Assembly: GCA_003218375.1 (NCBI GenBank)
Contig: QHNH01000010.1
Span: forward strand, 249,887 to 313,886
Source: Verrucomicrobiota bacterium
Lineage (GTDB): Bacteria; Verrucomicrobiota; Verrucomicrobiia; Chthoniobacterales; UBA10450
Length of the DNA: 64,000 nucleotides
Direction: 5' to 3'
The notes below the pieces were generated by a model. It worked only from the letters and a program-made list of their open reading frames with translations, was not told the origin of the DNA and ran no database searches. Below, in pieces: positions 55,786-62,413 of this stretch (position 1 is the first letter of the stretch; every line of letters starts with the position of its first letter). The position numbers and the translations under genes were made by a program.

Positions 55786-55819
55786 GTGGTGACTAACGGT
55801 GTACTTTGCTAGGCGAATT

Positions 55820-55835
55820 GAGCTTAGGCAAGCTC
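55820..55835 (+). repeat. 16-base repeat upstream of the tandem-domain secreted protein
   Basis: GAGCTTAGGCAAGCTC, itself nearly palindromic, followed by a purine-rich stretch. The identical word is at 57438-57453, downstream of the same gene. Confidence 0.75.
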
Positions 55836-55924
55836 GGAGGCGGAAGGCGGAGGGCAGAAGAATTTGTCTTGACCCGAACGGCACGAATCGCCAGCATCGG
55901 TTAACCTCGATCCAGGAGCTGGAT

Positions 55925-57364
55925 ATGAGACAATTGTTTCAGCTTGGGAGAAAACGAAGCCTCTTCAGGGCGTCTTTACTCGCGGCAAGTTTTGGTCTGT
56001 TGTTCGCGCTTGTCACTTTTTCTCTCGCAAAGACTCCTCCACGATATGCGAAGCAGAGCCCGGTAAGGGAAACTGCGATCACGCTGCGCACCAGCTCGGC
56101 AGCAGCTCAGGAGGCGAGTGTGACGGAGGTGCCGCCGTTTGTCGGCACTCACTCCGAAACGTGGGAAGAGTTTCCGGTGGAGAAGTTTGGCAGTTCAGAA
56201 GTCTCCATCCTCGACGGTACCGCCGTGATATCTGGTACTCGGCTCGAAACCGCCACGTCTCATATGTTTCAGCTTTGTGGCTTCTATGCGCAGCCAACTG
56301 ATGGAAAAATATTTTTTGGAGCAGATTCGACCAACGCGTTCATGACGGTTTCCTTCTCCAGGCCAGTTACCTCCTTCGGCGCCTACTGGGGAAACATGCC
56401 TGAGCATCCAGAGGGCTGCGGTGGCACCGACACAACTTTTAGCTTCAAGGATGCTGAGGGCAATTTAGTGGGCGAGGCTTCATATCCAGCGGGCAATGGA
56501 GCCATGCACTGGCACGGTTATATATTGACGACGCCCGTAAAGACCGTTGAGATCGGTGGCGTTTTTTTGGTGACAGATGGGATGCAAGCGACTGTCAGCA
56601 CTGTGAACTCCCTTTCCAACATCTCCACCCGCGGTTTGGTCCAAACTGGTGATAATGCTTTGGTCGGCGGCATTATTGTCACTGGTACACAGCCCAAGAA
56701 AATCATTGTGCGCGCGATCGGGTCTTCGTTGTCTCTTGCCGATAAACTGGCCGATCCAATTCTGGAGCTCCATGATTCTTCCGGCGCTTTGCTGGAGACG
56801 AATGACAACTGGATGGATAGCCCGAACAAGCAGGCCATCATCGATAGCACGATTCCGCCAAGCAATTCTTTGGAATCAGCCATTGTGCGCACGGTGGCGC
56901 CGGATGCTTATACCGCGATTGTGCGCGGGGTGAATAACGGGACTGGCCTTGGAGTAGTAGAAGTGTACGATCTGGATACCTCGGCTGACTCGAAGCTGGC
57001 TAACATTGCCACGCGCGGGCTCGTCCAAACAGGAGACAATGTGTTGATCGCCGGTATGATCGTAGCCGGTCAGGCTTCGCAGAAAGTGATCATTCGTGCG
57101 CTTGGCCCCTCCTTATCAGTTCCCGGTAAGCTGGCCGATCCGACGCTAGAGTTACATGATAGTAACGGCGCGTTACTGGAAGCGAGTGATAACTGGGTCG
57201 ATAACCCGAACAAACAGGCGATTATCGACAGCACCATCCCGCCGACGAACAACCTGGAATCGGCCATCGTGCGCATGCTAGCTCCGGCGAATTATACTGC
57301 CATTGTCCGGGGCGCGGGTAACACAACAGGTATCGCGGTCGTCGAGGTATACGCGCTCAATTAA
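55925..57364 (+). CDS. Exported protein with two tandem NISTRGLVQTGDN domains
   Basis: A 479-residue protein. The signal peptide is SLLAASFGLLFALVTFSLA. A first unique domain (about 65-220) has FGAYWGNMPEH and CGGTDTTFSFKD. Two repeats follow of about 120 residues at about 229-351 and 356-478. Each begins with N-I-(S/A)-T-R-G-L-V-Q-T-G-D-N and ends in AIVRG..N.TG.(G/A)VVEVY. These repeat units are very frequent in exported proteins of soil Verrucomicrobiota; their role is unknown. It starts at ATG 55925; the earlier frame starts in the repeat region. Confidence 0.78.
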   Translation: MRQLFQLGRKRSLFRASLLAASFGLLFALVTFSLAKTPPRYAKQSPVRETAITLRTSSAAAQEASVTEVPPFVGTHSETWEEFPVEKFGSSEVSILDGTAVISGTRLETATSHMFQLCGFYAQPTDGKIFFGADSTNAFMTVSFSRPVTSFGAYWGNMPEHPEGCGGTDTTFSFKDAEGNLVGEASYPAGNGAMHWHGYILTTPVKTVEIGGVFLVTDGMQATVSTVNSLSNISTRGLVQTGDNALVGGIIVTGTQPKKIIVRAIGSSLSLADKLADPILELHDSSGALLETNDNWMDSPNKQAIIDSTIPPSNSLESAIVRTVAPDAYTAIVRGVNNGTGLGVVEVYDLDTSADSKLANIATRGLVQTGDNVLIAGMIVAGQASQKVIIRALGPSLSVPGKLADPTLELHDSNGALLEASDNWVDNPNKQAIIDSTIPPTNNLESAIVRMLAPANYTAIVRGAGNTTGIAVVEVYALN

Positions 57365-58604: not shown

Positions 58605-60887
58605 TTACCGTGGTTTCAGCGGTGTTATGGTTCGGGACGGCGCCGGTTTTTCGCTGCGACAATTCTGCTGGGCCTCTTCTCTGGAACCATAACATTGCGC
58701 GCCGCTGGCCTTGGCGCGCGCCTCGCTCAGCTGAGTCACTCTTCCGTTAAGACAGACCCAGCACGACTTGGGCTGCTCCTTCGGCTTGCAATTCTGCTGC
58801 GCCTCTTCCCTGGAACCATAGCATTGCGCACCGCTGGCCCTGGCTCGTGCTTCGCTGAGCTGAACCACTTTTCCGTTCACGCACGTCCAGCACTTGGTCT
58901 CGGTCGTCTGTTTGCAATTCTGCTGCGCTTCTTCCTGCGAACCGTAGCATTTGAGACGCCTGGCCTTCGCCTGCGCGGCAGTAAGCTGGGTAACACTTCC
59001 ATTTACACAGACCCAGCAACCGCCGCCCTCGGGCTTCGGTGCGCAATTCCTCTGCGCTTCCTCTTGCGAAGCGTAGCATTGGAGTTTTCTGGCTGCCGCT
59101 TGTGCCTGCGTGAGCTGCGTAACATTTCCGGCGACGCAGACCCAGCACATCTTGTCCCCGCCCCCACAATTGCGCTGGGCTTCTTCCTGGGAACCGTAGC
59201 ATTTCGCGCCTCTGGCCTTCGCCTGCGCTTCAGTCAACTGCATCACTTGTCCACCGATGCAGACCCAGCACATTCTCTCCTGGCAACTGCGCTGCGCTTC
59301 TTCCCGGGAAGTGAAACATCTTGCGCCCCTTTCCCGCGCCTGCGCCTCGGTCACCTGGACGGCCTGGTTGTCGATGCAGATCCAGCACTTCGCGCAATTT
59401 CTCTTTGCTTCGTCCGGTGAAGGATAGCATTTGAGTCCTCTTTCCCGGGCCTGCGCCTCAGTAAGCTCAGCGACTTGTCCGTCGATGCAGACCCAGCACT
59501 TCCCACCACAGTTCCGCCGCGCTTCTTCCTCGGTAGAATAGCATTTGGCGCCGCGCGCCCGGGCCTCTGGCTCGGTGAGCTCCACGACTCTCCCGTCGAT
59601 GCAAACCCAGCATTTTCCACAGTTTCGTCGCGCTTCTTGCTCGGTCCGGTAGCATGGAACGCCGCGTTCGCGGGCTTCGGCTTCGGTCGCTCGCACAACT
59701 TTTCCGTCCAGGCACACCCAGCAAAGCTTTCCGCAATTCTGCAGCGCCAACTCCAGGGAAGGATAGCACTTAAGCCGTTTGTCCCGCGCTTCGGTGTCGG
59801 TCAATTGCACCACTTTCCCGTCAAGGCAAACCCAGCAGAGCTTGCCACAATCCCTTTGCGCCTCTTCCGGCGTGGTGTAGCAACGAAGACGTCTCTCCCG
59901 CGCCTCGGCCTCCGGTAGCTGGACCACTTTTCCGTCGAGACAGACCCAGCACTTTCCGCAATTCCGCTGCGCTTCCTCCTGGGTAGGATAGCATTTGAGA
60001 TTTTTCTCCCGGGCCTGCGCCGCAGTCACCTGCACTACTTTTCCGTCGACGCAGATCCAGCAAAGTTTCCCGCACTCCCTCTTCGCCTGCTCTGGCGAAT
60101 CGTAACATCGACCACCTTTCGCCTCGCAATCGGCGCGGCTCGTCTTGATCACCTTATCGCCGACGCAGCACCAGCAGGGCTTGCAGTTCTTGATCGCTTC
60201 TTCCCGGGAAGCATAACATTGACCGCCCTTGGCCTTGCATTCCGTGTCCGGGATCAGGACGATGCGCCCGTTAATGCAGCAGTAGCAATAGTTAGGAGGA
60301 GGCGGAGGCGGCGGGCAGCCGCAGTGCGGGGGGCAGGGCAACGGCCACCACCAGCAATGGGGCGGTTGCGGCGGACAAGGCGGATGTTCCCCGGGACCGC
60401 CATGCCACTTGTAACACCCGCAGTCAGTCTCCCACCACCAGCCGCCACCTTCCTGGATCCAAACCCACTGACAACACACGTACGACCAATTCCCGCCATC
60501 GACCGGCGTTGGCGTTAGAAGGAACGCGTGTTTCTCGCCGCTATTGGTGACGCCGTCGCCAATAATGAGGCAGGAATCGCTGATCGATTTCGCCACCGTC
60601 AGGACCTTCAAGTCGGTGAGGGAAAGATCGCAGAGCGTGTTGAGATCGTACATCTGGCCGCTCACATAAAGGAAGGCATGCTCGGCGCCGTCAGTCGTCG
60701 TGGAGGAGCCGACGATCATTCCGTGCACGTTGTGCCCTGGGCCGGAGACGCCGTTCGCGGAGCTCGTCGTGCCACCGAGGGTTCCCAAGTCCGTAACGGT
60801 GTAACTCAATTGCGCTTCGGCGCGCGTAGATACGAAAAGGAGGACGGAAAAAAGCGCTCCCAGGCTGAGGTAGGTTTTGTTTTTCAT
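58605..60887 (-). CDS. Secreted protein with HAF-type domain and 14 tandem cysteine-rich repeats
   Basis: A 760-residue protein. The signal peptide is LGALFSVLLFVSTRAEA. Residues 28-125 contain YTVTDLGTLGG and two HAF motifs (EHAFLY, KHAFLL), as in extracellular HAF-repeat proteins. A Trp/Cys/Pro/Gly-rich linker covers 133-200. Residues 201-743 consist of 14 repeats, each with a 35-residue core of pattern C-W-x-C-x(19)-C-Y-x(9)-C, with typical text CWVCLDGKVVQL and EEAQRNC. Between cores lie 2 to 8 residues. About 56 cysteines are thus spaced regularly. I do not recognise the repeat. Disulfide- or metal-stabilised modules on the cell surface are inferred. Confidence 0.85.
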   Translation of the reverse strand: MKNKTYLSLGALFSVLLFVSTRAEAQLSYTVTDLGTLGGTTSSANGVSGPGHNVHGMIVGSSTTTDGAEHAFLYVSGQMYDLNTLCDLSLTDLKVLTVAKSISDSCLIIGDGVTNSGEKHAFLLTPTPVDGGNWSYVCCQWVWIQEGGGWWWETDCGCYKWHGGPGEHPPCPPQPPHCWWWPLPCPPHCGCPPPPPPPNYCYCCINGRIVLIPDTECKAKGGQCYASREEAIKNCKPCWCCVGDKVIKTSRADCEAKGGRCYDSPEQAKRECGKLCWICVDGKVVQVTAAQAREKNLKCYPTQEEAQRNCGKCWVCLDGKVVQLPEAEARERRLRCYTTPEEAQRDCGKLCWVCLDGKVVQLTDTEARDKRLKCYPSLELALQNCGKLCWVCLDGKVVRATEAEARERGVPCYRTEQEARRNCGKCWVCIDGRVVELTEPEARARGAKCYSTEEEARRNCGGKCWVCIDGQVAELTEAQARERGLKCYPSPDEAKRNCAKCWICIDNQAVQVTEAQARERGARCFTSREEAQRSCQERMCWVCIGGQVMQLTEAQAKARGAKCYGSQEEAQRNCGGGDKMCWVCVAGNVTQLTQAQAAARKLQCYASQEEAQRNCAPKPEGGGCWVCVNGSVTQLTAAQAKARRLKCYGSQEEAQQNCKQTTETKCWTCVNGKVVQLSEARARASGAQCYGSREEAQQNCKPKEQPKSCWVCLNGRVTQLSEARAKASGAQCYGSREEAQQNCRSEKPAPSRTITPLKPR
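58659..60287 (-). repeat. Tandem array of 14 coding repeats (about 105-129 bases each)
   Basis: DNA of residues 201-743 of the cysteine-rich protein. The units are divergent at the third codon position, so the array is not a very recent amplification. The last units (12-14) are the most alike, sharing CYGS(R/Q)EEAQQNC. Confidence 0.85.
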
Positions 60888-61010: not shown

Positions 61011-62240
61011 CTACGGCGCGGCCGAGTATGGGATCGGCATGATGCCCTGGGTGCGGGCTTCCGAGAGGTCGATCCACTGGTAACTCGGGTCGCCGGCGTT
61101 CAGCTTCTCTTTGTTCTTCGCCAGGTCTTCGGTGCCGACCTGGACCGCTTTCGCGAACGTCTTCCAATCGCGGCGAGCGCGCACGCTGGCATCGAGTTTG
61201 TCGCGGACCGCGGTCAGCGCGGCGGGATCGCCGGGTTTCTTTTCATCGGCAACGTCGGGGAGGCCGAGGATGGTGGTTTCGAGGCCGATGAACTGGGATT
61301 TGCCGGCGCCGAGATAGAAACCGACATACATGTGCCCGGGGACCGTGACGAGAAACGGCTCGATCGAGATTTTGCGCAGGAGCGAGGCGAAGAGAACGCT
61401 GCCATCGACGCAGTTGGCCTGAGTGTTGGTGAGCGATTGATCGATGAAGCGGACATACTGGCTTTGAACGGTGTCGGACCCGCCGGGCGTGGTGGTAGTG
61501 GAACTATATTGGAGGCCGCGCTTCTGCAGCGCGGACCAAAGGGCGAAGACCTGCTTAAGCGTTTCGTCGTGCTCGTGGGTCGTAACCCGGAAGCCGCTCA
61601 CGATTTTCGTCTCGAGCGCTTCCTGGAGAACCTTGTCGAGCATCGGATGGTTCTCGTTCACGTAAGCGGCGAACATCCAGCCGAGATCGGCGGAACCGGC
61701 GATGAAGTTTTCGTCGTTGAGTGTCTCCTCGGAATTGGCGACGCCGAAGGGACAATCGTTGATCGAGCGGACCTGCAAGGTCTCATATTTTTCGCCGGCG
61801 GGTTCGCCATCCACTTCGAGTTCAAAAGTGATGTTCAAAGGGACCTGCTGCGTCATCTGCCGCAGCTTTTCGAATTTGTAATTCACCTTCGGCGCGATGA
61901 AGTAATCCTTGTCTACCTCGGCCAGTTCGCCGCTCCAGGATGCCGTCGCCATCAGATCGTTCTCCTTGAGGGTGACTTTGACTTTCGAGTTTTCCGCTGG
62001 CGCTTTAACCGAAACGCCCACCAAACCAAAGCGTTCGCCGAGCAAGTAAGGGTCGGGCTTTTCCGCCTCCTGATCGTCGGGCTCGACCGGACGCACCGAC
62101 GCCGTAGCGATAATCAGCGACGGGAAAAGCTGATGATCCATGTTCGCCTCCGGTGTCCATTCGATGTCCTGGGCCCTGGAGACGGAAGCGAGGAAGAGAT
62201 AAGCGCATCCGGCAACGATCGTGGAAAGAAAGGATTTCAT
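61011..62240 (-). CDS. Exported transglutaminase-like protein
   Basis: A 409-residue protein with a signal peptide (FLSTIVAGCAYLFLASVSRAQ). The N-terminal half is beta-rich. The C-terminal half has TQANCVDGSVLFASLLRKI (candidate nucleophilic Cys) and VPGHMYVGFYLG (candidate His), the spacing of transglutaminase-like cysteine proteases. An acidic partner would be further downstream (GLETT or IDLSEA). I chose ATG 62240, in front of the signal peptide; the longer frame begins in the repeat block at 62300. Confidence 0.68.
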   Translation of the reverse strand: MKSFLSTIVAGCAYLFLASVSRAQDIEWTPEANMDHQLFPSLIIATASVRPVEPDDQEAEKPDPYLLGERFGLVGVSVKAPAENSKVKVTLKENDLMATASWSGELAEVDKDYFIAPKVNYKFEKLRQMTQQVPLNITFELEVDGEPAGEKYETLQVRSINDCPFGVANSEETLNDENFIAGSADLGWMFAAYVNENHPMLDKVLQEALETKIVSGFRVTTHEHDETLKQVFALWSALQKRGLQYSSTTTTPGGSDTVQSQYVRFIDQSLTNTQANCVDGSVLFASLLRKISIEPFLVTVPGHMYVGFYLGAGKSQFIGLETTILGLPDVADEKKPGDPAALTAVRDKLDASVRARRDWKTFAKAVQVGTEDLAKNKEKLNAGDPSYQWIDLSEARTQGIMPIPYSAAP

Positions 62241-62299
62241 CCCAGATCGTTCGCGCGCCCCGATCCAAAAGACAAGTCGAAGGCCGACCTTATGAAGAG

Positions 62300-62413
62300 A
62301 ATGACGAAATCCGAATGTTGAATGCCGAAACAATGACGAAGCTCGAAGTCGAATGACGCAATCCTAGTCATCTTTTGATCGTTCGTCGTTCGTCATTCGG
62401 AATTCGTCATTTT
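62300..62413. repeat. ATGACGAA-type dispersed repeat block, copy 2
   Basis: AATGACGAA and TCGAATGACG words are followed by their complements (TTCGTCATTCGGAATTCGTCAT), as in 21575-21688. It lies between divergent genes. Confidence 0.6.

Follow-up and report, generated by a model that had tools for sequence, protein, structure and literature searches.

Comparison with Described Families

Kazal-type domains (PF00050/PF07648) have the disulfide pattern C1–C5, C2–C4, C3–C6 (PMC6950245). The same order (I–V, II–IV, III–VI) is predicted, solely from the co-loss of cysteines, for a repeat found in 14 tandem copies in one exported protein of the window, i.e., the whole stretch of 64,000 nucleotides from a Verrucomicrobiota bacterium analyzed here. 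The likeness extends to a β-hairpin followed by a helix. However, cysteines II and III are adjacent in six-cysteine repeats (C3 and C4, numbered by position in the repeat), there is no reactive-site loop, cysteine VI lies in an additional second helix, and the repeat is shorter. The Kazal Pfam profile matched neither the whole proteins nor any of 100 single repeats.

The best local likeness in fold is to a segment of the ADAM17 ectodomain (8snl/9xy4; 29 columns, rmsd 0.9, TMq 0.63). The Foldseek match is not significant (E 2.4, prob 0.54, 24% identity), the Z-scores for the 8snl/9xy4 chains are 3.2 (over 37 residues) and 3.1, and these chains align over unlike residue ranges, 567–608 and 596–636. 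Plant MEG peptides (PF24153, Meg) are likewise small secreted cysteine-rich units. Whole-protein Pfam E-values for Meg, down to 1.6e-10, result from adding several weak copies; at E 0.01 the profile was found in three of 100 single repeats (best 0.0011, partial profile), which we take as chance cysteine-rich likeness. The first strand of the Cytochrome b5-like profile (PF00173) resembles CWVCxDGKVVxLT; this match covers only positions 3–27 of 74, with no stretch of the window protein significant alone and the remaining domain absent. More generally, the Pfam hits to Cyt-b5, Meg, NDUS4, Phage_g100, and BMC add up many weak copies, of which few contain any stretch that is significant by itself, and scans of single repeats yielded no convincing match.

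In Pfam, NCBIfam, and the PDB, no family spans the cysteine repeat; querying PDB sequences with the full protein, with A2, and with A6 yielded no significant match, and the literature search returned nothing describing the repeat. The initial annotation, made from the sequence without database searches, had supposed that no such family was described, and this held. The HAF repeat protein family TIGR02913 is matched above its cut-off by the N-terminal domain; it spans part of residues 27–130 only and is uninformative on the cysteine repeats.

Gene and Protein Layout

The open reading frame, its strand, and its limits were correctly given in the initial annotation. Features of the gene are as follows.

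58605..60887, (−) strand: whole gene, 760 aa exported protein, HAF domain and 14 repeats
60813..60887, (−) strand: signal peptide, residues 1–25, MKNKTYLSLGALFSVLLFVSTRAEA, AxA-type end, read from sequence
60498..60809, (−) strand: HAF-type domain, residues 27–130, TIGR02913 match at 53–85, kept in relatives
60288..60497, (−) strand: Cys/Trp/Pro-rich segment, residues 131–200, CCQWVWIQEGGGWWWETDCGCYKWHG...CWWWPLPC...PPPPPPP, kept in same-family relatives
60183..60287, (−) strand: repeat 1, six Cys, core match, AlphaFold2 pLDDT 95.5
60072..60176, (−) strand: repeat 2, six Cys, core match
59958..60062, (−) strand: repeat 3, four Cys (C1, C4, C24, C35), protein and DNA core
59847..59951, (−) strand: repeat 4, four Cys, protein and DNA core
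59733..59837, (−) strand: repeat 5, four Cys, protein and DNA core
59619..59723, (−) strand: repeat 6, four Cys, protein and DNA core
59508..59612, (−) strand: repeat 7, four Cys, protein and DNA core
59394..59498, (−) strand: repeat 8, four Cys, protein and DNA core
59283..59387, (−) strand: repeat 9, four Cys, Phe after third core Cys, protein core
59166..59270, (−) strand: repeat 10, four Cys, protein and DNA core
59043..59147, (−) strand: repeat 11, four Cys, protein and DNA core
58914..59018, (−) strand: repeat 12, four Cys, protein and DNA core
58788..58892, (−) strand: repeat 13, four Cys, protein and DNA core
58659..58763, (−) strand: repeat 14, four Cys, protein and DNA core
58608..58658, (−) strand: C-terminal tail, residues 744–760, short, basic, Pro-containing, from sequence

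Secretion and a HAF-type start, both proposed earlier, are borne out by the signal peptide, identified by inspection, and by the NCBIfam match of residues 53–85 to TIGR02913 (52 bits against the curated cut-off of 22.65). The segment at 60288–60497 (−), with nine Cys, 10 Trp, and 18 Pro in residues 131–200, carries the motif CCQWVWIQEGGGWWWE..CxCYKWHG, is separate from the array, and belongs to no named family. We recognized no anchor of the sortase, PEP-CTERM, or transmembrane type in the protein, and thus free secretion is possible.

The gene is under purifying selection, dN/dS being below 0.2 in comparisons with same-genus homologues over residues 28–276 (dN 0.12 and dS 0.66 for G003; dN 0.22 and dS 1.18 for G001).

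Anatomy of the Repeat

The strict core C-x2-C-x19-C-x10-C occurs in 14 exact copies within residues 201–743, as had been stated initially, starting at residues 201, 238, 276, 313, 351, 389, 426, 464, 501, 540, 581, 624, 666, and 709, while 1000 shuffles of these residues gave 0.07 cores on average and two at most. At the DNA level, the core pattern matches exactly 11 times in the window but never in 100 shuffles. Linkers between repeats are 2–8 residues long. The first core cysteine is followed by Trp in 13 of the 14 repeats, so the earlier reading holds for all but repeat 1, which has Tyr; the third is followed by Tyr with Phe once, in repeat 9, exactly as described. The count of about 56 cysteines has to be raised to 60 for the array (71 in the whole 760-aa protein), since repeats 1–2 carry six each (C1, C3, C4, C17, C24, C35); repeats 3–14 carry four (C1, C4, C24, C35) and are devoid of C3 and C17. 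Among repeats 3–14, the divergence is 24% at nonsynonymous and 68% at synonymous sites, and hence they are old, selected copies rather than the product of a recent expansion at the DNA level.

Paired Loss of Cysteines

Covariation of cysteines was analyzed on an HMM alignment of 164 repeats (162 distinct) from three phyla. Two pairs are lost jointly: C1/C24 (phi 0.91, Fisher 2.6e-37) and C3/C17 (phi 0.89, Fisher 2.2e-32), both values being for the 162 distinct repeats with related repeats counted as independent; the cross pairs between the two have phi about −0.42. C4 and C35 are present in nearly all of the 162 and are jointly absent once, in one G589 repeat. Four cysteine classes cover 149 of the 162 distinct repeats: the six-cysteine class CWCC..C..C..C (39 repeats), GWCC without C1 and C24 (60), CWVC without C3 and C17 (45), and GWFC with C4 and C35 alone (5). 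Where C1 and C24 are lost, Gly typically takes position 1 and Phe, Trp, or Tyr position 24; where C3 and C17 are lost, position 3 is usually Val, Ile, or Thr and position 17 is Ala. The number of cysteines is even in 159 of the 164 repeats.

As the Fisher values ignore relatedness and so overstate significance, we place weight on the repeated, separate loss events. Paired losses arose in separate lineages, two of them within the genus of the window at the first repeat: Y...R replaces C1...C24 in repeat 1 of G001, and G...I replaces C3...C17 in that of G007, with all six cysteines retained in repeat 1 of G000 and G003 from the same genus. In three short Dehalococcoidia repeats (YWCC), the C17 region is missing while C3 and C24 are present, and C3 likely re-pairs with C24.

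From the joint losses and the C4/C35 pair left behind, we infer the intra-repeat disulfides C1–C24, C3–C17, and C4–C35. The evidence for a C4–C35 bond would be mainly the retention of both cysteines, plus the single G589 co-loss. Disulfides in exported proteins are plausible, as the genome of the window (G000) contains four matches to the DsbA family and two to VKOR. A VKOR gene and a DsbA-family gene lying ~140 bp apart on contig C42 of G000 (280381–281300) likely constitute a disulfide-forming system.

Predicted Fold

The AlphaFold2 model of a single repeat (100 alignment rows) has pLDDT 95.5, with all five models above 91, and consists of elements E2–7, E10–15, H16–21, E25–27, and H30–36 (β-β-α-β-α). 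For three repeats, pLDDT is 88.9 and pTM is 0.57, with nearly identical elements in each copy; thus, the single unit is well defined and the mutual placement of units is uncertain. The compact fold per repeat anticipated in the initial annotation is therefore seen in the models of both one and three repeats.

Foldseek searches against the PDB and BFVD (viral) gave no match at E 0.001, and the best VIA-align Z-scores, 2.7 for three repeats and 3.2 for one, fall in the range that the tool terms unspecific. This absence of a significant match is insufficient to claim a new fold. Overall, we consider it highly probable that the disulfide pairing and the fold are as predicted.

Distribution and Repeat Number

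Profile A1 detected the gene in nine of 58 genomes of a sample of relatives, its own included and all from one family, and profile A2 in nine of 83 genomes of its own Chthoniobacterales family. An even sample of the phylum contained three positive genomes among 388, again all from this family, and the named records of the relatives' loci are Spartobacteria/Chthoniobacterales MAGs. A confinement to Verrucomicrobiota, expected earlier, did not survive wider searches: a scan of 84,980 species genomes with the DNA core pattern also found clean tandem copies in Dehalococcoidia and in one Aminicenantes genome. Profile searches were positive in 10 of 294 Dehalococcoidia genomes, in four of 297 genomes from the phylum of the Aminicenantes genome, and, in a wider sample of the Dehalococcoidia phylum, in one of 350, which is the center genome. 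The repeat family is real and patchy, and extends beyond Verrucomicrobiota.

Pattern matches in Paludibacter, Paenibacillus, Olivibacter, Gammaproteobacteria, Prevotellaceae, and Azohydromonas look like chance, being without tandem copies, stop-containing, or of low complexity. No relative was found by tblastn in plasmids and phages, and no convincing one in viral contigs.

Complete homologues in the family have six to 14 repeats. The counts are 13 in G001 and 11 in G003 from the same genus, and 13 in G031, six in G017, at least seven in G019, and at least three in G032 from other genera. In G003, the middle repeats are expanding and the end repeats are still orthologous. The G007 gene is split, the contigs at L036 and L037 both ending inside the repeat array, and hence the family is probably undercounted in assemblies.

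Neighbors and Fusion Partners

Neighbors of the window gene encode ChaN-like, transglutaminase-like, and GYF_2 proteins. Its flanks share no neighbor with those of relatives, where common flanks are seen only in the pairs G001/G019 and G032/G020. The transglutaminase-like gene (61011–62333, (−) strand) has a partial NCBIfam match, covering the N-terminal region of the anti-phage protein ProA, at 72.8 bits, far short of the cut-off of 1500. Also in the window, the C-terminal half of a 521-aa protein (55799–57364, (+) strand), with no Pfam match above cut-off, consists of two ~110-residue units starting NI(S/A)TRGLVQTGDN.

In Dehalococcoidia, a conserved gene follows the repeat gene (L165, L168, L169, L170, L171, L172, L173, L046). 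Its product has He_PIG (Ig-like) domains in all three copies scanned and a C-terminal zinc ribbon in two of these; the L169 protein has a signal-like N-terminus and a transmembrane segment in addition to its zinc-ribbon tail.

In Aminicenantes and other Dehalococcoidia, the repeat is fused to Peptidase_C13, CARDB, or TSP_3. Four GWCC repeats precede a legumain-type Peptidase_C13 in Aminicenantes (L154:6419–8389, (+) strand), and a 2005-aa Dehalococcoidia protein (L161:6200–12214, (+) strand) contains three GWCC repeats, CARDB, fn3, Big_7, FG-GAP, and a gingipain-type Peptidase_C25. A further fusion is to a putative zinc peptidase containing HEFGHH, and propeller-like and β-helix-like sequences joined to the repeat were recognized by inspection.

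Proposed Function and Alternatives

The repeat is a genuine, undescribed family of predicted disulfide mini-domains of ~35 residues, which would belong among extracellular disulfide-rich tandem repeats. We propose, with a probability of about 0.6, that it serves as a disulfide-locked extracellular binding or spacer module, present here as a multivalent array. The signal peptide would direct export of the protein, with 14 tandem mini-domains behind the HAF domain. Each copy would fold by itself, a β-hairpin (CWxCxxGxVVxx) leading through a short helix to the short strand GxCY and on to a second helix (SxEEAxxxC), and would be locked by up to three internal disulfides, C1–C24, C3–C17, and C4–C35; repeats 1–2 of the window would have all three, and repeats 3–14 would lack C3–C17. 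Such a mini-domain would be a stable extracellular binding or spacer unit, and the long array would most likely act as a multivalent stalk or adhesive surface that withstands proteases and tethers the cell, the HAF domain, or both of them to some polymer or surface. The anatomy, the distribution, the paired cysteine losses, the fold prediction, and the fusion partners are computed results, beside which the disulfide bonding itself, a surface location, a binding function, and a ligand are what we infer; a binding role for the repeat is tentative, with slightly less than an even chance.

The array might instead be a passive, fast-evolving spacer without a ligand that distances the HAF domain from the cell. 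The variation from six to 14 repeats in complete homologues, the expansion of the middle repeats in G003 between orthologous ends, and the mostly structural nature of the near-invariant residues would all suit a spacer; retention of Trp2 and Tyr/Phe25 in nearly all repeats, and the occurrence of the repeat as a single or few copies in otherwise unrelated proteins, make this unlikely.

A broader account, which we consider quite unlikely, treats the repeat as a mobile extracellular domain of at least three phyla, with the Kazal-type disulfide order and a different fold, that was recruited repeatedly as an accessory to propeller proteins and secreted peptidases, where it may serve in peptidase regulation or in docking, and was amplified to 14 copies here.

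The surface fiber suggested in the initial annotation is possible but not favored over beads on a string, given the three-repeat pTM of 0.57 and predicted bonds that are intra-repeat. Its covalent version, with disulfides between repeats or chains, draws on the abundance of cysteines, the linkers of 2–8 residues, secretion, and the few repeats with an odd number of cysteines; however, even numbers in 159 of 164 repeats and pairing within repeats leave few cysteines for cross-links, and we regard such a fiber as improbable, although the nine cysteines of residues 131–200 could still cross-link.

That the array is a string of Kazal-like protease inhibitors is distinctly improbable. The deduced pairs equal the Kazal pattern (PMC6950245), a serine protease inhibitor domain is among the weak fold matches (3pis_D), and the repeat is fused to C13, C25, and putative zinc peptidases; but with the second and third cysteines adjacent the reactive-site loop is missing, no Pfam scan gave a Kazal match, the Z-score of 2.2 for 3pis_D is far under a telling level, and the propeller, CARDB, and apparent β-helix fusions would be left unexplained.

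Finally, the metal half of the earlier suggestion of disulfide-linked or metal-binding repeats is very improbable and the disulfide half is favored, since, despite the C-x2-C opening and four core cysteines in most copies, the four ligands of a zinc-ribbon-like Cys4 site are not kept together: many relatives have six cysteines, losses as two separate pairs leave four or two, two-cysteine repeats (GWFC...C) are incompatible with tetrahedral Cys4 coordination, and the protein is exported by a bacterium with VKOR and DsbA in its genome.

Implications

Little-cultured soil and sediment bacteria thus provide a compact domain family that has been invisible to databases. Read from the aligned repeats, its pairing signal appears unusually clear: the natural paired loss of cysteines is a ready-made experiment which predicts each disulfide, so that fold and bonding are testable on one short peptide. 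The paired removal is also a clear case of disulfide-rich repeats shedding bonds with the fold retained. Moreover, the presence of the repeat in secreted C13 and C25 peptidases offers a handle on what these enzymes attach to.
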